Below, one piece after another: positions 49,603 to 63,993 of a stretch of 64,000 nt of DNA. The position numbers were made by a program, and so were the translations under genes. The stretch is from Lachnospiraceae bacterium MA2020 (GTDB taxonomy: Bacteria > Bacillota > Clostridia > Lachnospirales > Lachnospiraceae): positions 124,001 to 188,000 of the forward strand of contig JQKK01000007.1 of the NCBI GenBank assembly GCA_000746015.1. The letters run 5' to 3'. Under the pieces are notes generated by a model. That model made no database searches, was not told the origin of the DNA, and saw only the letters and a list, made by a program, of their open reading frames with translations. Within the stretch, counting starts at the first letter, position 1, and each line of letters starts with the position of its first letter.

Positions 49603-49631
49603 TGATTAACATAATTATATTATGTTAATCA
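49603..49631 (-). repeat. Palindrome at the recombinase gene stop, copy 2 of three
   Basis: Perfect 12-bp arms (49603-49614 / 49620-49631, arm TGATTAACATAA) with a 5-nt loop. Read on the minus strand the first three bases are the TGA stop of the recombinase gene. No T-run follows, so terminator activity is doubtful. Nearly the same arms occur at 36322 and 60083. Confidence 0.7.
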
Positions 49632-50684
49632 AAACAGTTCTGACAGATTTCTAACAGCCTCTTTTTCCTCTTCGGTACTTGCTACATAGTGAGTTGTTGA
49701 TGTAATAGAAGAGTGTCCCATCAGCTTTTGAACACGCTCGAGGTCGCCTCCTGTGGCTTTTAGCATCGTTTCGGCATAAGTACTTCGTAATTTATGTGGA
49801 GTTATGCGCTTTGATTCTGATGGAATGGCAGCGGTTATGTATTTTTTAACCATAAGCTCTACAGATCTGACGCTAAGTCGCTTGCCGGAACGATTCAAAA
49901 ATACAGCCTTTTCATTATCAAGAGGCTTATATTTATCACGGCAATCGAGATAGGTCTGAAGATATGCACCTGCTGCATCGCTAAAGTATACAACATCGAA
50001 GTTTCCACCTTTTCTGAATACATTTATGCTGTGTTTCTTGAAATTTATATCATCAATATCCATACCAACAAGCTCAGATACTCGAATACCGGTAGAAAGG
50101 AATATCTGTACGATAGCCAGATCACGTTCCCAGTTTTTCTCATGGAATTTAGCTTGACGCTCAGATAAACCCTGACCGGACTCAACAGCATCGACAAATT
50201 GGTTTTTTCCGTCTTTATCCAAGTAAATTACTTCCTTTTTTGGCAATTTGGTACGTGTTATCAGATCTATAGGGTTAGAACTCAGTAATTTTCGAACATA
50301 GAAGTATTTCCAAAAGGTATTGAGGGTCACCATATAGTGTTCGATAGTTGTTTTTGAACATTCTACGTACTTAACGATACCATTTGCATCAACTTGTGGA
50401 TAATTTCTTAAATAATGAAGAAATTCAACGATATCCTTGTCATTTAAGAGATTTAAGTCCTCAAGGGTGATTTCCTTAATAGATTTAGCTTTAAAATACG
50501 AATTTGAGTCATGCAGATAGTTAAAAAACGTTTTTAGCTGGCTTGCATAAGAATATATAGACATAGCTGAAAGACGAATTTCGCGCTCAATAAAATAATC
50601 ATGTACGAAACCAGGAAGAGTTTCGATAATGGCATTAGCTTTTTGACGAACTTCATAGTTTTTTTCTTTTTTGTAATCAGACAT
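49629..50684 (-). CDS. Tyrosine recombinase (XerC/XerD-like integrase)
   Basis: A 351-residue tyrosine recombinase. An N-terminal SAM-like core-binding domain (about 25-135) precedes the catalytic domain with the complete active site: R201 (TGIRVSEL), K225 (FRKGGN), H297 and R300 (HKLR), H324 (MGHSS) and nucleophile Y333 (THYV). It resembles XerD-like chromosomal recombinases more than phage integrases, but has about 50 extra residues compared with XerC/D (about 298). The ribosome site (AAAGAGGTGAACT-like) lies just before the ATG. No prophage genes flank it. It is divergent from the flagellin-like gene across a palindrome-rich spacer, and a palindrome overlaps its stop codon. Confidence 0.9.
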   Translation of the reverse strand: MSDYKKEKNYEVRQKANAIIETLPGFVHDYFIEREIRLSAMSIYSYASQLKTFFNYLHDSNSYFKAKSIKEITLEDLNLLNDKDIVEFLHYLRNYPQVDANGIVKYVECSKTTIEHYMVTLNTFWKYFYVRKLLSSNPIDLITRTKLPKKEVIYLDKDGKNQFVDAVESGQGLSERQAKFHEKNWERDLAIVQIFLSTGIRVSELVGMDIDDINFKKHSINVFRKGGNFDVVYFSDAAGAYLQTYLDCRDKYKPLDNEKAVFLNRSGKRLSVRSVELMVKKYITAAIPSESKRITPHKLRSTYAETMLKATGGDLERVQKLMGHSSITSTTHYVASTEEEKEAVRNLSELF

Positions 50685-51020
50685 AGTTCACCTCAAAGAA
50701 TAAATTTGTAAATAATTGTAGTTATAACTTAAAGTTAAGAATTATAAGGCTATAAATTAGAATATATCAATTATAGCATGTATAATTAAATTTTGCTATA
50801 TATATTCGTAAAATTTATATTATGCGAATATATATCTATATAGCGAAAATCACTCTCCCCTCCAGTTTATAAAATATTCATTTGTAATACTGTATACAGT
50901 GATGTATTCTAATTATATAAATGGATATTATGTCAAAACTAAAATGATATGGCTAAATCCCATGGATGGTTAATTTACATGTAGTTTTAAGCATTTTGCA
51001 TGGGTGAAGGGAGCAAAACT
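50685..51020. other. 336-nt intergenic region between recombinase and flagellin-like genes
   Basis: Very AT-rich. It holds a long imperfect inverted repeat (about 50788-50808 / 50825-50850; perfect core arms TATATATTCG and CGAATATATA, with outer GCTATATA-type arms) and a perfect 12-bp palindrome ACTGTATACAGT (50889-50900). I found no clear sigma-28 type promoter and no small gene with a ribosome site. Confidence 0.6.
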
Positions 51021-51761
51021 ATGAGTGGAATTTCAGCAATTGGTAATTCTTATGGCAGCTACGGTGTATATAATCCAACTCAGGCAAATGCTGCAGATAT
51101 TGCGATAAATGAGCGCCTTAATACTCAGATCGTTGGCAACAATGCTGGTACGGAAAATCTCACTTATGCAAAATCAGCTGCAAATATTACTGATTCTGCA
51201 CTTGGTGACATCACCGATTATCTTCAGTCGATAAGGGAACTTGGTGTTCGTGCTAAAAATGGCACTTTATCTTCTGATGATGTAGCTTCTATACAGGGAC
51301 AGGTTGATCAGTATCTTCAGGGTATCAATGATGTTGCTGATAATACAGTTTTTAATGAGAATCGTCTTCTTGATGGAAGCAAAACTACTTACAATTTTGC
51401 TATTGACAGCAACGGCTCTCAGGTAACATTAAACACACCTGATTCTACAGTCGCATCTCTTGGCTTAAGTGGCCTCGATGTTACAAGCAGTTCATTCTTT
51501 GATGATGTTGACAAGGCGCTTGATACTATTAACAGTGCAAGGTCCTCTGTTGGTGCCCAGTCCAATATTTTTGATCATGCCTGGAAGCAAAACCTTAATT
51601 CTTATGAAAACCTTGTTGCATCAACTGCTGACCCATTGAATGATATTGTAAAAACATATCAGGATCGCCAGAGAGATCAGATGCTTCAGAATGTGAAATT
51701 TATTATGCAGAAAAAGGATGAAGAAAACAAAAAGACAGCATCAATTAATATGTTAGCTTAA
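51021..51761 (+). CDS. Atypical flagellin-like protein
   Basis: A 246-residue protein resembling the helical rod domains of flagellin. Residues about 22-120 (ANAADIAINERLNTQI, SIRELGVRAKNGTLS, NTVFNENRLLDGS) match the N-terminal D0/D1 pattern, and about 165-240 (DVDKALDTINSARSSVGAQSN, then a helix) match the C-terminal D1. The usual start (MxINxNxxAxxAxRxL) is replaced by a Ser/Gly/Tyr-rich segment, and the C-terminus ends in KKTASINMLA instead of the usual flagellin end. It may be a minor filament, cap-like or secreted flagellin variant. ATG 51021 follows AAGGGAG; an in-frame ATG at 51000 lacks one. A strong terminator follows and no other flagellar gene is in the window. Confidence 0.75.
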   Translation: MSGISAIGNSYGSYGVYNPTQANAADIAINERLNTQIVGNNAGTENLTYAKSAANITDSALGDITDYLQSIRELGVRAKNGTLSSDDVASIQGQVDQYLQGINDVADNTVFNENRLLDGSKTTYNFAIDSNGSQVTLNTPDSTVASLGLSGLDVTSSSFFDDVDKALDTINSARSSVGAQSNIFDHAWKQNLNSYENLVASTADPLNDIVKTYQDRQRDQMLQNVKFIMQKKDEENKKTASINMLA

Positions 51762-51827: not shown

Positions 51828-51856
51828 TTGACTTTACAAATGTATACTAATATAAT
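51828..51856 (+). promoter_or_regulatory. Promoter for the TetR-type regulator
   Basis: TTGACT (51828-51833), 17-nt spacer, perfect TATAAT (51851-51856), about 40 nt before ATG 51897. Confidence 0.7.
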
Positions 51857-51896: not shown

Positions 51897-52466
51897 ATGA
51901 ATGAGCTTGATGAGCGTTACAGCACTGTTGAAAATGCTATATTTGACGCTTTTTTTCTGCTAATTAATGAAAAAGACATGTCTAAAATAACTGTTTCTGA
52001 TCTGGTCAAAAAGACAGGTATCGTCAGGAGTACGTTTTATAACCACTATGAGAATATTCCTGCACTGATCGAAGCTGCTGAGGATAAAACAATTAATGAT
52101 ATCTTTACACTTATGGAGAGTTTTCACCCTAAAAATGATAAAGATGTTTGTAAGTCTTACTTTCTTGCCATAGTAAACTATGCAAAAGTCAATCCTTTTG
52201 TAACTAATCTGCTTGAAAGTCCACGGAGTGATATTTTCTTTGAAAAGATGATGACCATGTTTCATAATTATGTGTCAAATCTTACAAATACAAAAGTCTC
52301 CTTCACTGGATCAAAGGAGACTTTCTCGTATCTTATTGCCTGCACCATCGGAAGCACCATCGGTGTCCTGCATAAGTGGATCGCGGAGGATTTTAAGACT
52401 CCTGCCGATACTGTTGCTGATCTTCTGGCACAGGTATTTATTACCGGAATACTACCATACTTATAA
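51897..52466 (+). CDS. TetR/AcrR-family transcriptional regulator
   Basis: A 189-residue regulator with an N-terminal helix-turn-helix (about 22-60: ITVSDLVKKTGIVRSTFYNHY) and a C-terminal ligand-binding helical domain with the pattern of the TetR_C_33/DhaS-like group. AGGGG lies upstream of the ATG. Its stop is 1 nt from the end of the convergent adenylating-ligase gene, so it may control that operon, although no shared operator was recognised between the two promoter regions. Confidence 0.87.
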   Translation: MNELDERYSTVENAIFDAFFLLINEKDMSKITVSDLVKKTGIVRSTFYNHYENIPALIEAAEDKTINDIFTLMESFHPKNDKDVCKSYFLAIVNYAKVNPFVTNLLESPRSDIFFEKMMTMFHNYVSNLTNTKVSFTGSKETFSYLIACTIGSTIGVLHKWIAEDFKTPADTVADLLAQVFITGILPYL

Positions 52467-52467
52467 A

Positions 52468-54000
52468 TTAAGCTATCTCATCGATCAACGCTTCCTGACG
52501 TTTGATCTTACCGGTAGTATTCCTTTTAAATGGATTCTTACGGATAACCAGTCCGGTCACATGACGATATGTTGGCTGAGACTGGTTATATTCATCAATA
52601 GCCTCCTGAAGCGCCCTTCTGACATCATCATCATCCATACCCTTTGCGAGTGCATACTCCTGATCAGGATAGATCCTTGCTGTAAGTGAATTATTTTCAC
52701 CGGTAACGATTACCTCTGCCGCAAGATCATTGAGGGCAAGCTTATTCTCAATTTCCTCGGGAGAAACATTTTCGCCATTAGACATGATGATAAGATTTTT
52801 AACGCGTCCATTGATAAAGAGGTAACCATCTTCGTCAATATATCCTTTATCTCCGGTATGGAGCCATCCATCCTTAAGAGCGACAGCGGTTTCTTCCGGC
52901 ATCTTGTAATATCCAAGCATTACACTTGATCCACGCACCAGGATCTCACCATTATCAAAGGCAATTTCCACATTAGGAAGAGGTTTGCCGATCGAACCAT
53001 CTTTATAGTTCTCAGGATTATTAGAACTAATAACCGGTGAACATTCAGACATTCCATAGCCTTCATGTATGCTTACGCCATATTCGGCAAATTTTTCAAT
53101 ATAAAACGGATCAAGGTGTGCTCCACCTGTAAATATAATATCCAGATTACCTCCAAATACTGTATCTGCAATAACTTTAGTAGGAATCGATTTGTCAGCT
53201 GAGGCAATCTTTTTATATATGGTCTCGATCATTAGTGGAACCATCAATACAACATTTGGATGGAAAATGCTCATGTTTCTCACCATATGAAGGTATGAAT
53301 CATTTATACATACGACAGAACCAAGTGAAAAGCCCTTAAGCCAATCCATTACGAGACAGAATGCATGGTGTATAGGAAGCACACTCATCATCACTGTGCC
53401 CGGATCAGCATTTAAGATTACTGAATCTACGTTAGCGGCAAGATTACGTTGTGAAAGCATGACACCTTTACTCTTACCGGTTGTACCTGATGTAAATATG
53501 ATTGTTGCTACATCGTTTGCGTTTCTTCCTATCACATCAGGAGAATTAGCTCCATTTTTTATGAGGTCAGCTAAAGTTTCCTTTCCATCCTCTTCTACTT
53601 CCTTTAATATCCAGATTTTTCGGATATTTGAGCATTTTTCTTTGATGAGAGCCACTAATGTTTCATGTTTTGGGCTGAGAAAAACGGCTTCGGAATCAGA
53701 GCGATTCAATAATTCTATAAGCTCATCTGCCGGAAGGTTTGCATCGAGGGGAACTGCGATATTCTGACCGGTTGTTATGGCAAGATAGCTTTCAACCCAC
53801 TCTATAGAGCTTGTTCCAATGAGTGCAATATGCTTACCTGTGAAATAATTAGAAAATAAACCCTTTCGGATAGCAACTATTTTTTCAGCAAGGTCCCCAT
53901 AGCTTCTTTCTTCTATATTCTTTTTATTGAGCCACCTTACAGCAGGCAGATCAACGTAATCTTTTGCGCATTTATCCCATAATTCTCGTATAGTGTCCAT
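52468..54000 (-). CDS. Adenylate-forming acyl ligase (AMP-binding enzyme)
   Basis: A 510-residue ANL-superfamily enzyme that activates a carboxylic acid as an acyl-adenylate. Core motifs are intact: A3 IIFTSGTTGKSKG (167-179), A5 GYGMSECSP (314-322), A7 LHTGDKGYIDEDGYL, A8 NGRVKN and A10 Lys K498 in NTTGKIKR. Third gene of a three-gene operon after an acyl carrier protein (9 nt away) and a condensation-type protein. The likely role is to load the ACP with an acyl or amino-acyl group, in the manner of a split NRPS or fatty acyl-AMP ligase. It could instead be an acyl-CoA synthetase; the fatty acyl-AMP ligase insertion is not evident to me. Confidence 0.88.
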   Translation of the reverse strand: MDTIRELWDKCAKDYVDLPAVRWLNKKNIEERSYGDLAEKIVAIRKGLFSNYFTGKHIALIGTSSIEWVESYLAITTGQNIAVPLDANLPADELIELLNRSDSEAVFLSPKHETLVALIKEKCSNIRKIWILKEVEEDGKETLADLIKNGANSPDVIGRNANDVATIIFTSGTTGKSKGVMLSQRNLAANVDSVILNADPGTVMMSVLPIHHAFCLVMDWLKGFSLGSVVCINDSYLHMVRNMSIFHPNVVLMVPLMIETIYKKIASADKSIPTKVIADTVFGGNLDIIFTGGAHLDPFYIEKFAEYGVSIHEGYGMSECSPVISSNNPENYKDGSIGKPLPNVEIAFDNGEILVRGSSVMLGYYKMPEETAVALKDGWLHTGDKGYIDEDGYLFINGRVKNLIIMSNGENVSPEEIENKLALNDLAAEVIVTGENNSLTARIYPDQEYALAKGMDDDDVRRALQEAIDEYNQSQPTYRHVTGLVIRKNPFKRNTTGKIKRQEALIDEIA

Positions 54001-54009
54001 AAATTATGC

Positions 54010-54249
54010 TTATGCCTCCTGTGGAATTGAATGTAAGAGACTTAGTGCTTCGCCTATTGTACGGATATTTACAACAAGTGATTCATCTAGCTCAATATCA
54101 AATGTGTCCTCAAGCTCACCCATAAATGCCATGAAATCAAAAGAACTGAAGCCAAGATCCTCTCTGAATCGCATTTCGTCAGTCATGTCCTCTGCTGATA
54201 CTTCGCAATACTGTGAAACAAATTCCTTAAACTGCATCTCATTTTTCAT
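54010..54249 (-). CDS. Acyl/peptidyl carrier protein
   Basis: A 79-residue acidic four-helix carrier protein. The phosphopantetheine attachment Ser is S36 in LGFSSFDFM, at the standard position; the usual DSL is SSF here. The C-terminal half (ELEDTFDIELDESLV) is typical of ACPs. AGGAGG precedes the ATG. Sitting between the condensation-type gene (24 nt) and the ligase gene (9 nt), it is most simply the shuttle on which the ligase places its acyl group. It is not near fatty-acid synthase genes, so it is probably not the housekeeping AcpP. Confidence 0.9.
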   Translation of the reverse strand: MKNEMQFKEFVSQYCEVSAEDMTDEMRFREDLGFSSFDFMAFMGELEDTFDIELDESLVVNIRTIGEALSLLHSIPQEA

Positions 54250-54273
54250 AATAAATTACCTCCTCTTCAAAAA

Positions 54274-55659
54274 TCAAACTGCTTCCATGATCTCGCCAAC
54301 GCTGCTTGATGGGTCCTCAATACCTCTGAAAAGTATCCTCATCATGTAGTAATAAAGTATTTCCATATCTTTTTCACCAAGCTTTACTGTCTGGTAATGA
54401 TATGAGAAATTTAAGCCGCCATCTTCAGTATGTGTTACTGTAAGATACATCTTCTTAGTTGCAGCTCCGTTTGCAAACCACTTGGAATGCATTGGAACAT
54501 CCTTTAAGAACGGATTTTCAATCTTTCCTGTCATTGGCTGGTAAGTGAGATAACAGCTTTCGTAAGTAGTATCTTCCGGTGTATTATAGCGTTTTCTCAT
54601 CTCTTCACGTATATATTCAGGATCATAATTACTATGCATATATATGCTGTTCTGAACATTCTGAATTTCATAAGCTGCGTCAAGAAATTCTGTGTCAGCT
54701 GAGATAACTGTACGACAAGGGAACATAATTGTTCTGCTTCCGCCTGATGTCCAGTCATCGTGAGTTGATCGTCTGGCAATAAAGTTTTCTATTGTGATAT
54801 CTTCCTGTCCGTCGTTGACTTTTGAAAGATAAGTTCTTATACCAAGTAGTAATAAGTTAGTCATAGAAAGCTGATGCTGTGTGCAGAAGTCGATCAGAGC
54901 CTTGGTAGCTTCAGGCTCAAGCTTATAGTCTTTTACATCAACGAATAATTCCTTTCTCTCGATGTCAGCGGCACGAAGCTTTGGATTTTTATGCTTTTTT
55001 CTTGCTTCTTCAAGAACTATAGGCCCCTGGATATCTGAGTAAAGCGGCTCGCCTAAAGCATCGAGCTGATCATCCCAAAATTTTTTGTCCTTAGCGAAAC
55101 GCTTTTCGTTTGTGGCTTTTTTGATATCTGATTCCAATACTTTCTCAAAATCTGCAAGATCCTTTGGATAATCGGTTCCAAACTTATAATGTGTGTAGAG
55201 CTGCATGATGTCTTTAACCATTACCATAAGTGCACAGGAATCAACAAGTCTGTGATCCATGTGTACGAAAAATCCATTATATCCGTCCGGCAGCTTTACC
55301 ATGATGAACTCATACATCGGAATATCATCGCCATCAAATGTATTATATGCCCACTGCTGCATAACAGTGTCTGCCTCAGCCAAAGTCATATTTGTAAGGT
55401 CACGTAACTGAATATCTCTTGAATCACCACTGGAAAGATACTGTTTAATAGCTCCCTTCTTGTCGCTCTTAGTAAAGCGAAGCCTTAAACATCCATATCT
55501 TTGTGTCTCAAGCTGCAGACATTTCTTCAAAAGTCCGAAATCCATTTCTGTCTTAAGTGAAGCAACAATACTAACTCCCGACACCTGCTGAGTTCCATAT
55601 TCCCTAATCCATTGATAGTGCATATTCTGAGCTGCTGTCAGAGGATATGTTTTTTTCAT
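54274..55659 (-). CDS. Stand-alone condensation-domain / acyltransferase protein
   Basis: A 461-residue protein of the chloramphenicol-acetyltransferase-like fold shared by NRPS condensation domains, PapA acyltransferases and WS/DGAT enzymes. The catalytic motif HHxxxDG appears as DHRLVDS with H136 and D140, so the general-base His is present while the first His and final Gly differ. No signal peptide or membrane helix. First gene of an operon with an ACP and an adenylating ligase. I infer it moves the ACP-bound acyl group to an amine, alcohol or second acyl carrier, making an amide or ester. The acceptor is unknown. AAAGGGG lies upstream of the ATG. Confidence 0.8.
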   Translation of the reverse strand: MKKTYPLTAAQNMHYQWIREYGTQQVSGVSIVASLKTEMDFGLLKKCLQLETQRYGCLRLRFTKSDKKGAIKQYLSSGDSRDIQLRDLTNMTLAEADTVMQQWAYNTFDGDDIPMYEFIMVKLPDGYNGFFVHMDHRLVDSCALMVMVKDIMQLYTHYKFGTDYPKDLADFEKVLESDIKKATNEKRFAKDKKFWDDQLDALGEPLYSDIQGPIVLEEARKKHKNPKLRAADIERKELFVDVKDYKLEPEATKALIDFCTQHQLSMTNLLLLGIRTYLSKVNDGQEDITIENFIARRSTHDDWTSGGSRTIMFPCRTVISADTEFLDAAYEIQNVQNSIYMHSNYDPEYIREEMRKRYNTPEDTTYESCYLTYQPMTGKIENPFLKDVPMHSKWFANGAATKKMYLTVTHTEDGGLNFSYHYQTVKLGEKDMEILYYYMMRILFRGIEDPSSSVGEIMEAV

Positions 55660-55820
55660 AATTATTTAAAACCCCTTTCAAAATTCTTTAAGATTTTGTT
55701 AAGGATTAAATTAGCACATTAATCTACTAAATCAAATAGGTTATGATAGTTAATGAACAATATCAAACAAATTGACCGAAACATATCGAACAATTAAAAT
55801 AAATGTGTATGATTGAATAC

Positions 55821-55859
55821 AAAAATACGAGTAGGAAAGCTTATTTGCTATCCTACTCG
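55821..55859 (-). terminator. Terminator of the Lys/Glu-rich protein gene
   Basis: A 13-bp stem with one mismatch (55828-55840 / 55847-55859). On the minus strand it is followed by TTTTT (A-run 55821-55825). It ends about 20 nt past the stop of the gene at 55881. Confidence 0.8.
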
Positions 55860-55880
55860 CAATAATGATCATTTTGAATG

Positions 55881-56630
55881 TCAGCCCTTTAAATCAAAGT
55901 GCTGACCTACTTTCTTTTCTTCATCTGACAGGATTGAATCAGAGCGCTTGTTGAAATAGTAATCGGTAATAAGGTTCTTTAACTCATCAACACTATCAGC
56001 GGTGAAAGTCTTATACTTTTCTTCCGCCTTTTTCGCTTCAGCCTTCTTTTCTTCAGCCTTTTTCTCTTCTTTCTTTTTTTCGGCTCGCGCTTCTATCCGC
56101 TCTTTTTGCTTTTCATTAGCGTCTTTAAGTACCGCGAAGAATTTGGCAGTGCCGTCATCAGCTATAGAGATACCATAGTTTACAATATCATCACCCTGGC
56201 CAGAATCCTTGAGGGACTGCATCATTTCGTCAAGCTGTGATACTGCGCTGACAATTACACCTTCTATCTTCTTTCGATAGTTTTCATCCGTAGCCATACG
56301 CTCAATCTTATCGGCATCAATAAGGATGGTTGTTTTATCATCGCTAGCGTATCCATACGGATTTGAATTGACTTTGTCGATCTCGTCAGTACTTACAAGA
56401 ACAAAATCGAGATCAGAAAACTTTTCTTTGAGCTGCTGATAATACTCTTCAGCTTCTTTTGAAAGCTTCACGTTTCCAACGGTTTTACCATAGGCAGTTT
56501 CCTTCATTTCAGGCATCTTATTGATATTTTTAGTGTTGCCGCTCTTGCTTTTACTGGTATTCTTTACATTTGTGTTTGACATGTAAGACGAGTAAACGTT
56601 ATTCATTGTGGTATTGGTACTTATTGACAT
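55881..56630 (-). CDS. Lys/Glu-rich soluble protein, DUF6033-like
   Basis: A 249-residue protein of unknown function. It has a Ser/Asn/Thr-rich disordered N-terminus (about 1-45), a globular part (about 50-170, LDFVLVSTDEIDKV, TTILIDADKIERMATDENYRKKIE), then a highly charged helix of repeated KKAEEKKAE-type units (about 175-205) and a short C-terminal segment. It resembles a Lachnospiraceae family I associate with DUF6033, but that name is from memory. AGGAGG precedes the ATG, with GCCGATAT, a flagellar sigma-factor type -10 box, about 80 nt upstream. It is followed by a strong terminator. Confidence 0.7.
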   Translation of the reverse strand: MSISTNTTMNNVYSSYMSNTNVKNTSKSKSGNTKNINKMPEMKETAYGKTVGNVKLSKEAEEYYQQLKEKFSDLDFVLVSTDEIDKVNSNPYGYASDDKTTILIDADKIERMATDENYRKKIEGVIVSAVSQLDEMMQSLKDSGQGDDIVNYGISIADDGTAKFFAVLKDANEKQKERIEARAEKKKEEKKAEEKKAEAKKAEEKYKTFTADSVDELKNLITDYYFNKRSDSILSDEEKKVGQHFDLKG

Positions 56631-63810: not shown

Positions 63811-63993
63811 ATGAGTGAAAAAGATATGATTCTTGATGCCATGAAAAAAGCCGGAGAACCGCTTAATGCTGGAAAGATTGCAGAGCTTACCGGGCTTGAT
63901 CGCAAAGTCGTGGACAAAACCATGACTGCAATGAAAAAGGACGGCTCTATTGTTTCACCTATTCGTTGTAAATGGGAACCCGCAGAGAAATAA
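63811..63993 (+). CDS. Small winged-helix/HTH protein, 60 residues
   Basis: A 60-residue protein consisting almost wholly of a winged helix: helix (KDMILDAMKKAG), helix (AGKIAELTG), recognition-like helix (DRKVVDKTMTAMKKDG) and a beta wing (SIVSPIRCKWEP). It resembles the minimal transcription-factor-like HTH proteins common in Lachnospiraceae and some archaea. AAGGAGG lies 9 nt before the ATG. It could bind DNA as a dimer or be an adaptor. The gene is complete, ending 7 nt before the window edge. Confidence 0.8.
   Translation: MSEKDMILDAMKKAGEPLNAGKIAELTGLDRKVVDKTMTAMKKDGSIVSPIRCKWEPAEK

Follow-up and report, generated by a model that had tools for sequence, protein, structure and literature searches.

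A probable fatty-acid-amide synthase operon of the CTA kind in Lachnospiraceae bacterium MA2020, with a linked TetR-family gene and a conserved upstream promoter element

What do a condensation protein, a carrier protein and an adenylating ligase make when they are encoded as three separate genes in a row, and what controls them? The question is raised by a locus in Lachnospiraceae bacterium MA2020 (GenBank assembly GCA_000746015.1, contig JQKK01000007.1, positions 124,001 to 188,000; this stretch of 64,000 nucleotides (nt), analysed as a whole, is called the window, and its own positions are used below). The original prediction, made from the sequence alone, described a compact line of unknown product that joins an activated acid to an unknown acceptor. 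The three open reading frames (ORFs), termed C, T and A, lie on the minus strand as predicted, with spacers of 24 nt (C/T) and 9 nt (T/A):

54274-55659, minus strand: C, condensation protein, 461 amino acids (aa), OaaC-like, motif DHRLVDS at residues 135-141
54010-54249, minus strand: T, acyl carrier protein (ACP), 79 aa, predicted attachment site Ser36 in DLGFSSF, read from sequence
52468-54000, minus strand: A, adenylating ligase, 510 aa, probably for fatty acids

The trio is very probably a fatty-acid-amide (FAA; acyl amine) synthase operon of the CTA, or OaaC-OaaACP-OaaA, kind with its own TetR regulator, a reading built on sequence homology and on analogy with enzymes already described. 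Searched against solved structures, the C sequence matches PDB entry 12KH, chain A (E=1.2e-171, residues 2-460), and the next best of the 11 matches reaches only 0.00079. Entry 12KH is OaaC of Coprococcus eutactus, to which C is 52.3% identical over the full length. In a tree of 62 C rows (58 different), containing one known FAA enzyme (OaaC) and one partial outgroup, OaaC is the sister of a 45-row clade holding the C protein of the window (supports 99/95 and 100/98), and the 46-row clade that unites the two has support 99/95. Together with a free-standing ACP and a ligase, OaaC couples ACP-bound fatty acids to free aminovalerate or gamma-aminobutyrate (GABA); it carries a (D/H)HxxxDS motif, and its homodimer is opened by holo- or acyl-ACP (PMC13142362). 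The OaaC/OaaACP/OaaA system of C. eutactus therefore resembles the trio in its free-standing condensation protein, ACP and ligase, in its DHxxxDS motif and in a C protein at 52% identity. The OaaC insertion helix Gln214-His224 (PMC13142362) aligns with residues ~213-223 of the window protein, whose model has a helix at 214-222. The free-standing line from activated acid to free acceptor put forward by the original prediction is thus borne out by the conserved trio and the OaaC-like C protein, and its "unknown product" gives way to a known class, represented by OaaC as the nearest solved relative of C and by the CTA operon of PMC13060934.

The features of the individual proteins agree with this assignment. 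The length of C falls inside the range of 300-520 aa of free-standing FAA condensation proteins, and its motif fits the class pattern of (D/H)HxxxD followed by S, A or sometimes G. The predicted H136/D140 motif stands, D135, H136 and D140 being invariant in an alignment of 19 relatives, and DHRL[IV]DS is found in 85 of the 97 rows of a larger C alignment that omits 30 reverse-orientation loci and rows under 400 aa. The predicted monomer (predicted local distance difference test score, pLDDT, 91.6) has the fold of a non-ribosomal peptide synthetase (NRPS) condensation domain according to Foldseek. An identity as PapA or WS/DGAT protein, which a structure prediction had been proposed to check, was rejected, since neither is among the 50 Foldseek matches listed and Pfam recognises PF00668 (110.1 bits versus a cut-off of 30.6, residues 2-457) and no other family at E<=0.01. 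The starter condensation domain of RzmA, among the Foldseek matches listed, shares the fold and the acyl donor at ~15% identity but, unlike C, works within a large assembly line on a carrier-bound amino-acid acceptor (PMC13142362 and general knowledge). The T protein matches PF00550 (41.2 bits, cut-off 20.8) and has the serine expected at position 36. The genome contains seven PP-binding (carrier) matches, including T, and five condensation-domain matches, so neither T nor C is the sole protein of its kind, and T is not the only candidate AcpP; two phosphopantetheinyl transferase matches are also present. The A protein matches PF00501 (195.3 bits, cut-off 29.9) and PF23562. As to whether it groups with ordinary acyl-CoA synthetases, its top NCBIfam model is indeed a long-chain-fatty-acid--CoA ligase, but the score of 241.6 bits is below the cut-off of 476; such an intermediate result agrees with the known class, because PMC13060934 terms the A proteins fatty acyl-CoA ligases.

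What is observed directly is the homology, the motif and the order of the genes; the chemistry would carry over from OaaC by analogy. In this scheme A would activate a free fatty acid with adenosine triphosphate and load it onto the phosphopantetheine of T, the acyl-T would dock on C, a small free amine would attack the thioester with the assistance of His136 of C, and the N-acyl amide would be released without a thioesterase, which would not be needed because the acceptor is not protein-bound. The amine differs among known systems, with OaaC using aminovalerate and GABA and Blautia strains with CTA operons making acyl ethanolamines and acyl dopamine. The genome has no match to the decarboxylase family PF00282, implying that an external source or a different pathway would be needed for tyramine, tryptamine, phenethylamine or GABA; three matches to PF01276, two of them over the cut-off, do not settle the amine. 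Two points argue for caution with the assignment as a whole: C is the only member of the trio compared directly with the Oaa proteins, and 52% identity to OaaC is insufficient to fix the amine. A surface sugar, suggested by the original prediction as a possible acceptor, is not supported.

Operons of this class have been described from the same family. The CTA operon, named after Chang et al. 2021, has T between C and A, occurs in 36 species of Lachnospiraceae and in no others among 7,781 isolate genomes, and varies in presence between species and strains (PMC13060934). Judged from this description, the operons of Blautia wexlerae and other Lachnospiraceae are like the window trio in their central carrier gene and patchy presence. 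The catalogue in that paper uses a cut-off of at least 70% identity to catalogued proteins for C and A, beside which stands the 52.3% identity of C to OaaC, the sole catalogued enzyme compared. CTA-encoding Blautia produced more acyl ethanolamines and, on feeding, acyl dopamine as well. Growth of most Lachnospiraceae tested was inhibited by oleic, linoleic and linolenic acid in free form, and some amines restored it, from which the authors argue that amide making is a detoxification of free fatty acids (PMC13060934, in the main text of which the words knockout and mutant are absent). By analogy with the argument for Blautia, detoxification of free fatty acids is likely also a benefit of the operon described here. 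Such products matter beyond the bacterium, as fatty acid amides act on human G-protein-coupled receptors and on gut hormone release (PMC13142362, PMC13060934).

Conservation of the trio was assessed by scanning genome contigs with C and taking the best 80 of 177 relatives, mostly labelled Lachnospiraceae, Eubacterium or Butyrivibrio. In a set of 105 loci, which counts the window and requires a C identity of at least 52% (101 of these C proteins are distinct), the order C-T-A on one strand is seen at 97, while seven end too soon and one is rearranged, with A and T on the strand opposite C (L129, longer as L150). The neighbourhood survey called for by the original prediction thus finds the three genes conserved together. 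Matches to C at E<=1e-20 are present in 17 of 48 genus genomes (13 at 55% identity or more, two of these partial, and four at 24-26%), 55 of 397 family genomes (13 at 52% or more) and 35 of 392 order genomes, and the highest identity is 77% in the genus sample and 80% among the best 80 of the 177 relatives. The operon is accessory, in agreement with PMC13060934. According to their source titles, many of the best 80 of the 177 loci come from the rumen or other animal guts, indicating that the class extends beyond the human gut. The distant C proteins at 24-26% identity adjoin a ligase in all four genus genomes; the one that was read (L160:4491-7856, plus strand) is a separate T-A-C trio with the carrier gene first and the motif NHMLADG.

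Beyond the original prediction, a TetR-family gene downstream of the trio and the region upstream of C are conserved with it. The features concerned are:

51897-52466, plus strand: TetR-family regulator, convergent with the trio, its end 1 nt from the stop of A, as had been predicted; PF14278/PF00440
55708-55813, minus strand: conserved promoter element of ~105 nt upstream of C, profile match E=8.7e-13, with the window among the 54 seeds
55806-55814, minus strand: inverted half-site 22 nt before the operator, AATCATACA in the window, often TATCAAACA
55773-55792, minus strand: palindromic operator-like site TGTTCGATATGTTTCGGTCA, 26.9 bits with the motif matrix
55740-55759, minus strand: second, degenerate operator-like repeat TGTTCATTAACTATCATAAC, 33 nt after the first, TGTt..TTAAgTC block conserved, putative role
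55708-55713, minus strand: likely -10 hexamer TAATTT after TG-C (candidate extended -10) with no good -35, TgTG.TA...T block conserved

The regulator scores 36.4 bits against PF14278 (cut-off 26.1) and 24.7 against PF00440 (cut-off 24), and has its own sigma-70-like promoter (TTGACT-17-TATAAT, 51828-51856). Its model is all-helical with a moderate pLDDT of 75.6, and TetR-family structures are the top fold matches. DhaS-type regulators (TIGR02366, PDB 4mk6) provide the top NCBIfam model, at 30.4 bits far below the equivalog cut-off of 129, and a solved relative, but the Foldseek list is headed by EthR instead and also holds FasR and FadR entries that are acyl-CoA-bound by title. A homologue lies downstream of and convergent with the trio at 64 of the 105 loci, 8-708 nt from A (BLAST ends); among the other 41, it is nearby in another arrangement at four (two from one species), absent despite room at two (L077 and L085) and not found at the one rearranged locus, and 34 are too short to judge. 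Two loci (L144 and L145) encode distant TetR homologues (35-38% identical) in the same convergent place (L144:9840-10508 and L145:10346-10912) with no recognised promoter element, and these may use another operator.

A palindrome search upstream of C recovers a TGtCcGAtAcgTaTCgGaCA-like motif that scores well above letter-shuffled sequence. Operator-like sites above 8 bits are present at 65 of the 89 loci whose C is at least 70% identical; where C is 52-70% identical the count is 1 of 15, and below 42% identity it is 0 of 21. Sites above 14 bits occur 60 times upstream of C and nowhere else in 1,431,679 bases of loci. Sites of 8-10 bits are weak, since 1% of shuffled upstream regions score as high as 9.6 bits, the maximum being 16.6. 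In a control at width 20, a stretch of C coding sequence outscored the upstream region (1301 versus 830) because the C protein is conserved, and the shuffles were plain letter shuffles; the argument consequently relies on the intergenic contrast and on the profile scan. The alignment of 55 loci with a site above 16 bits, 54 of which built the profile, gives a common layout of inverted half-site, palindrome, second repeat 33 nt on, G-rich block and extended -10-like block, with a mean majority-base frequency of 0.72 versus 0.35 in the 100 nt upstream. Half-site spacing is identical in 52 of the 55 loci, and 16 half-sites are fully complementary to the left half of the operator, some with both arms changed. 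Upstream of C, the profile finds a match at 86 of the 89 loci in the top identity class (C at least 70%; 54/54 seeds and 32/35 others), at 3 of 13 in the 52-70% class, and at none of the 6 loci at 34-42% or the 2 at 24-26%. On the reverse strand of the same upstream regions lie twelve more matches, and there is no other match at E<=0.01 in 1,556,739 bases, including 20 kb of the window. For the operator pattern, the genome itself holds one match with zero mismatches (the TGTTCGATATGTTTCGGTCA site) and two with three mismatches, and for the reversed pattern one.

The element and the regulator travel together. Every one of the 69 loci with a TetR protein at least 45% identical has the element, versus 1 of the 18 with room but no such TetR, and of the 23 loci where TetR cannot be judged, 19 have it; the Fisher value for this link (3.6e-17) ignores shared ancestry. 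With C at least 70% identical, the element is found at 68/68 loci with TetR and 0/2 without. Both are missing from L077, L085, L147 and L148, and in L147 and L148 this is so though their C proteins group with that of the window (98/84). These patterns suggest that TetR probably controls the operon by binding the predicted repeats upstream of C. Several observations weigh against such control or against the element as drawn. In 16 of the 18 TetR-less loci C is below 70% identity, making the link partly one of shared ancestry, and these 18 include L144 and L145, with a distant TetR in the same place and no recognised element; L077 and L085 indicate that the operon can exist without either component. 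The lone TetR-less locus with the element, L142, has no TetR in 8.2 kb and is cut 459 nt upstream. Within the window, the G-rich block of relatives is missing, a promoter-like match on the plus strand (10 of 12) overlaps the operator at 55772-55800, and a second operator-like match of 17.0 bits, probably due to chance, lies inside an ORF at 63897-63916.

An alternative, which we consider improbable, is that the TetR gene is a mere neighbour and that the element serves as an RNA leader or as the binding site of a different factor. At 67 of 68 loci, no site in the region upstream of the TetR gene exceeds 8 bits, as this explanation would allow, and self-regulation through the operator-like site was rejected on the same count; the exception is L100, where the TetR gene is divergent and shares the region upstream of C. 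The repeat arms could also pair as RNA. However, presence of the element at 69/69 loci with TetR versus 1/18 without speaks for a connection between the two, and an RNA leader was rejected because six footprints fold no better than shuffles (z from -1.44 to 0.73) and 55600-55900 has no Rfam match up to E=1; the -10-like block, moreover, is downstream of the repeats.

If TetR does control the operon, a role as activator is slightly favored over one as repressor, because the repeats appear to stop just short of the -35 position, placing them ahead of the core promoter, because the sigma-70 scan missed that core promoter, and because the top model of the regulator, DhaS, is named an activator. 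The scan, which misses the candidate -10, returned nine sites in total, fewer than the shuffled mean of 14.1. We would guess that the ligand is a fatty acid or acyl-CoA, given the acyl-CoA-bound FasR and FadR fold matches and the detoxification idea of PMC13060934. Stated in full, the tentative picture, whose chances fall a little short of even, is that a large Lachnospiraceae clade keeps its CTA operons under their own single-target TetR, with operators 33 bp (~three DNA turns) apart and a weak extended -10, the regulator probably being an activator responsive to long-chain fatty acids or to the amide product. If true, cells would make host-active acyl amines as an inducible protection from fatty acids, with a readable signal as the switch. 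The conserved regulator and operator make operon switching testable, and the TetR ligand would name the inducing signal and test the fatty-acid-detoxification idea.

The enzymes belong to a described class, and for the regulation no published description was found in the literature searched, the founding paper of Chang et al. 2021 being outside its reach; this holds for both the TetR link and the promoter element. Term searches of the main text of PMC13060934 returned none of "TetR", "regulator" or "promoter", that of PMC12479983 returned no TetR regulator (the matches being parts of other words), and "TetR" does not occur in the main text of PMC13142362, so that the window differs from the OaaC system as described there in its linked TetR gene and promoter element.

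For the enzymes themselves, a stripped-down NRPS that makes an N-acyl amino acid or short peptide is highly unlikely. The fold of C, the other condensation-domain proteins of the genome and the acceptance by OaaC of the omega-amino acids aminovalerate and GABA (PMC13142362) are what one could bring forward for it; against this, there is a single ligase, of fatty-acid type, and none of the nine proteins scanned with Pfam and NCBIfam between 49629 and 59923 is a thioesterase. The introduction of PMC13142362 states that these enzymes exclude proteogenic and nonproteogenic amino acids as substrates, yet its OaaC uses aminovalerate. A canonical NRPS was rejected on the basis of the three single-function proteins and the same lack of a thioesterase in the scan. 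Slightly less probable still is a trio that makes a membrane or cell-envelope lipid (acyl to lipid amine, glycan or polyol) rather than a free amide, for although a glycerophosphodiester phosphodiesterase gene begins 1.1 kb upstream of C and A resembles fatty-acid ligases, none of the 80 best loci, many of which are short, contains a phosphodiesterase match at E<=1e-5, C closely resembles OaaC, a user of small soluble amines, and the operon is scattered within the genus (13 of 48 genomes, two of these counted by partial matches).

The phosphodiesterase is rare in the genus (6 of 48 genomes at E<=1e-60, at best 44% identical outside its own genome), leaving no conserved flank for an empty-site test. 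The other window neighbours tested, TetR aside, have no match at E<=1e-5 in the best 80 loci except a weak recombinase (L062) and an aminotransferase (L058). Directly upstream of the operon promoter is a DUF6033 protein (55881-56630), likewise with no match at E<=1e-5 in those loci. Beyond the TetR gene are a short flagellin (51000-51761), of which the N-terminal domain alone is recognised, and a tyrosine recombinase (49629-50684), nearest to the XerS model (212 bits versus a cut-off of 267).

Two contigs of the genome (C21 and C15) encode proteins of ~1200 aa, 54% identical to each other (L173:3205-6810 and L174:2859-6458, both minus strand), which are single-chain A-T-C proteins of ligase, carrier and condensation parts (from a Pfam run covering 1078 aa of one of them). 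Each ligase part matches the A protein of the window at 304 bits, and proteins of this type have a match at E<=1e-150 in 9 of 299 family genomes. A third contig (C2) carries an NRPS-like locus (L175:3175-9199, plus strand) with a 535-aa condensation protein, a 1018-aa protein matching ligase and condensation families, and a 441-aa protein that resembles a membrane transporter by sequence.

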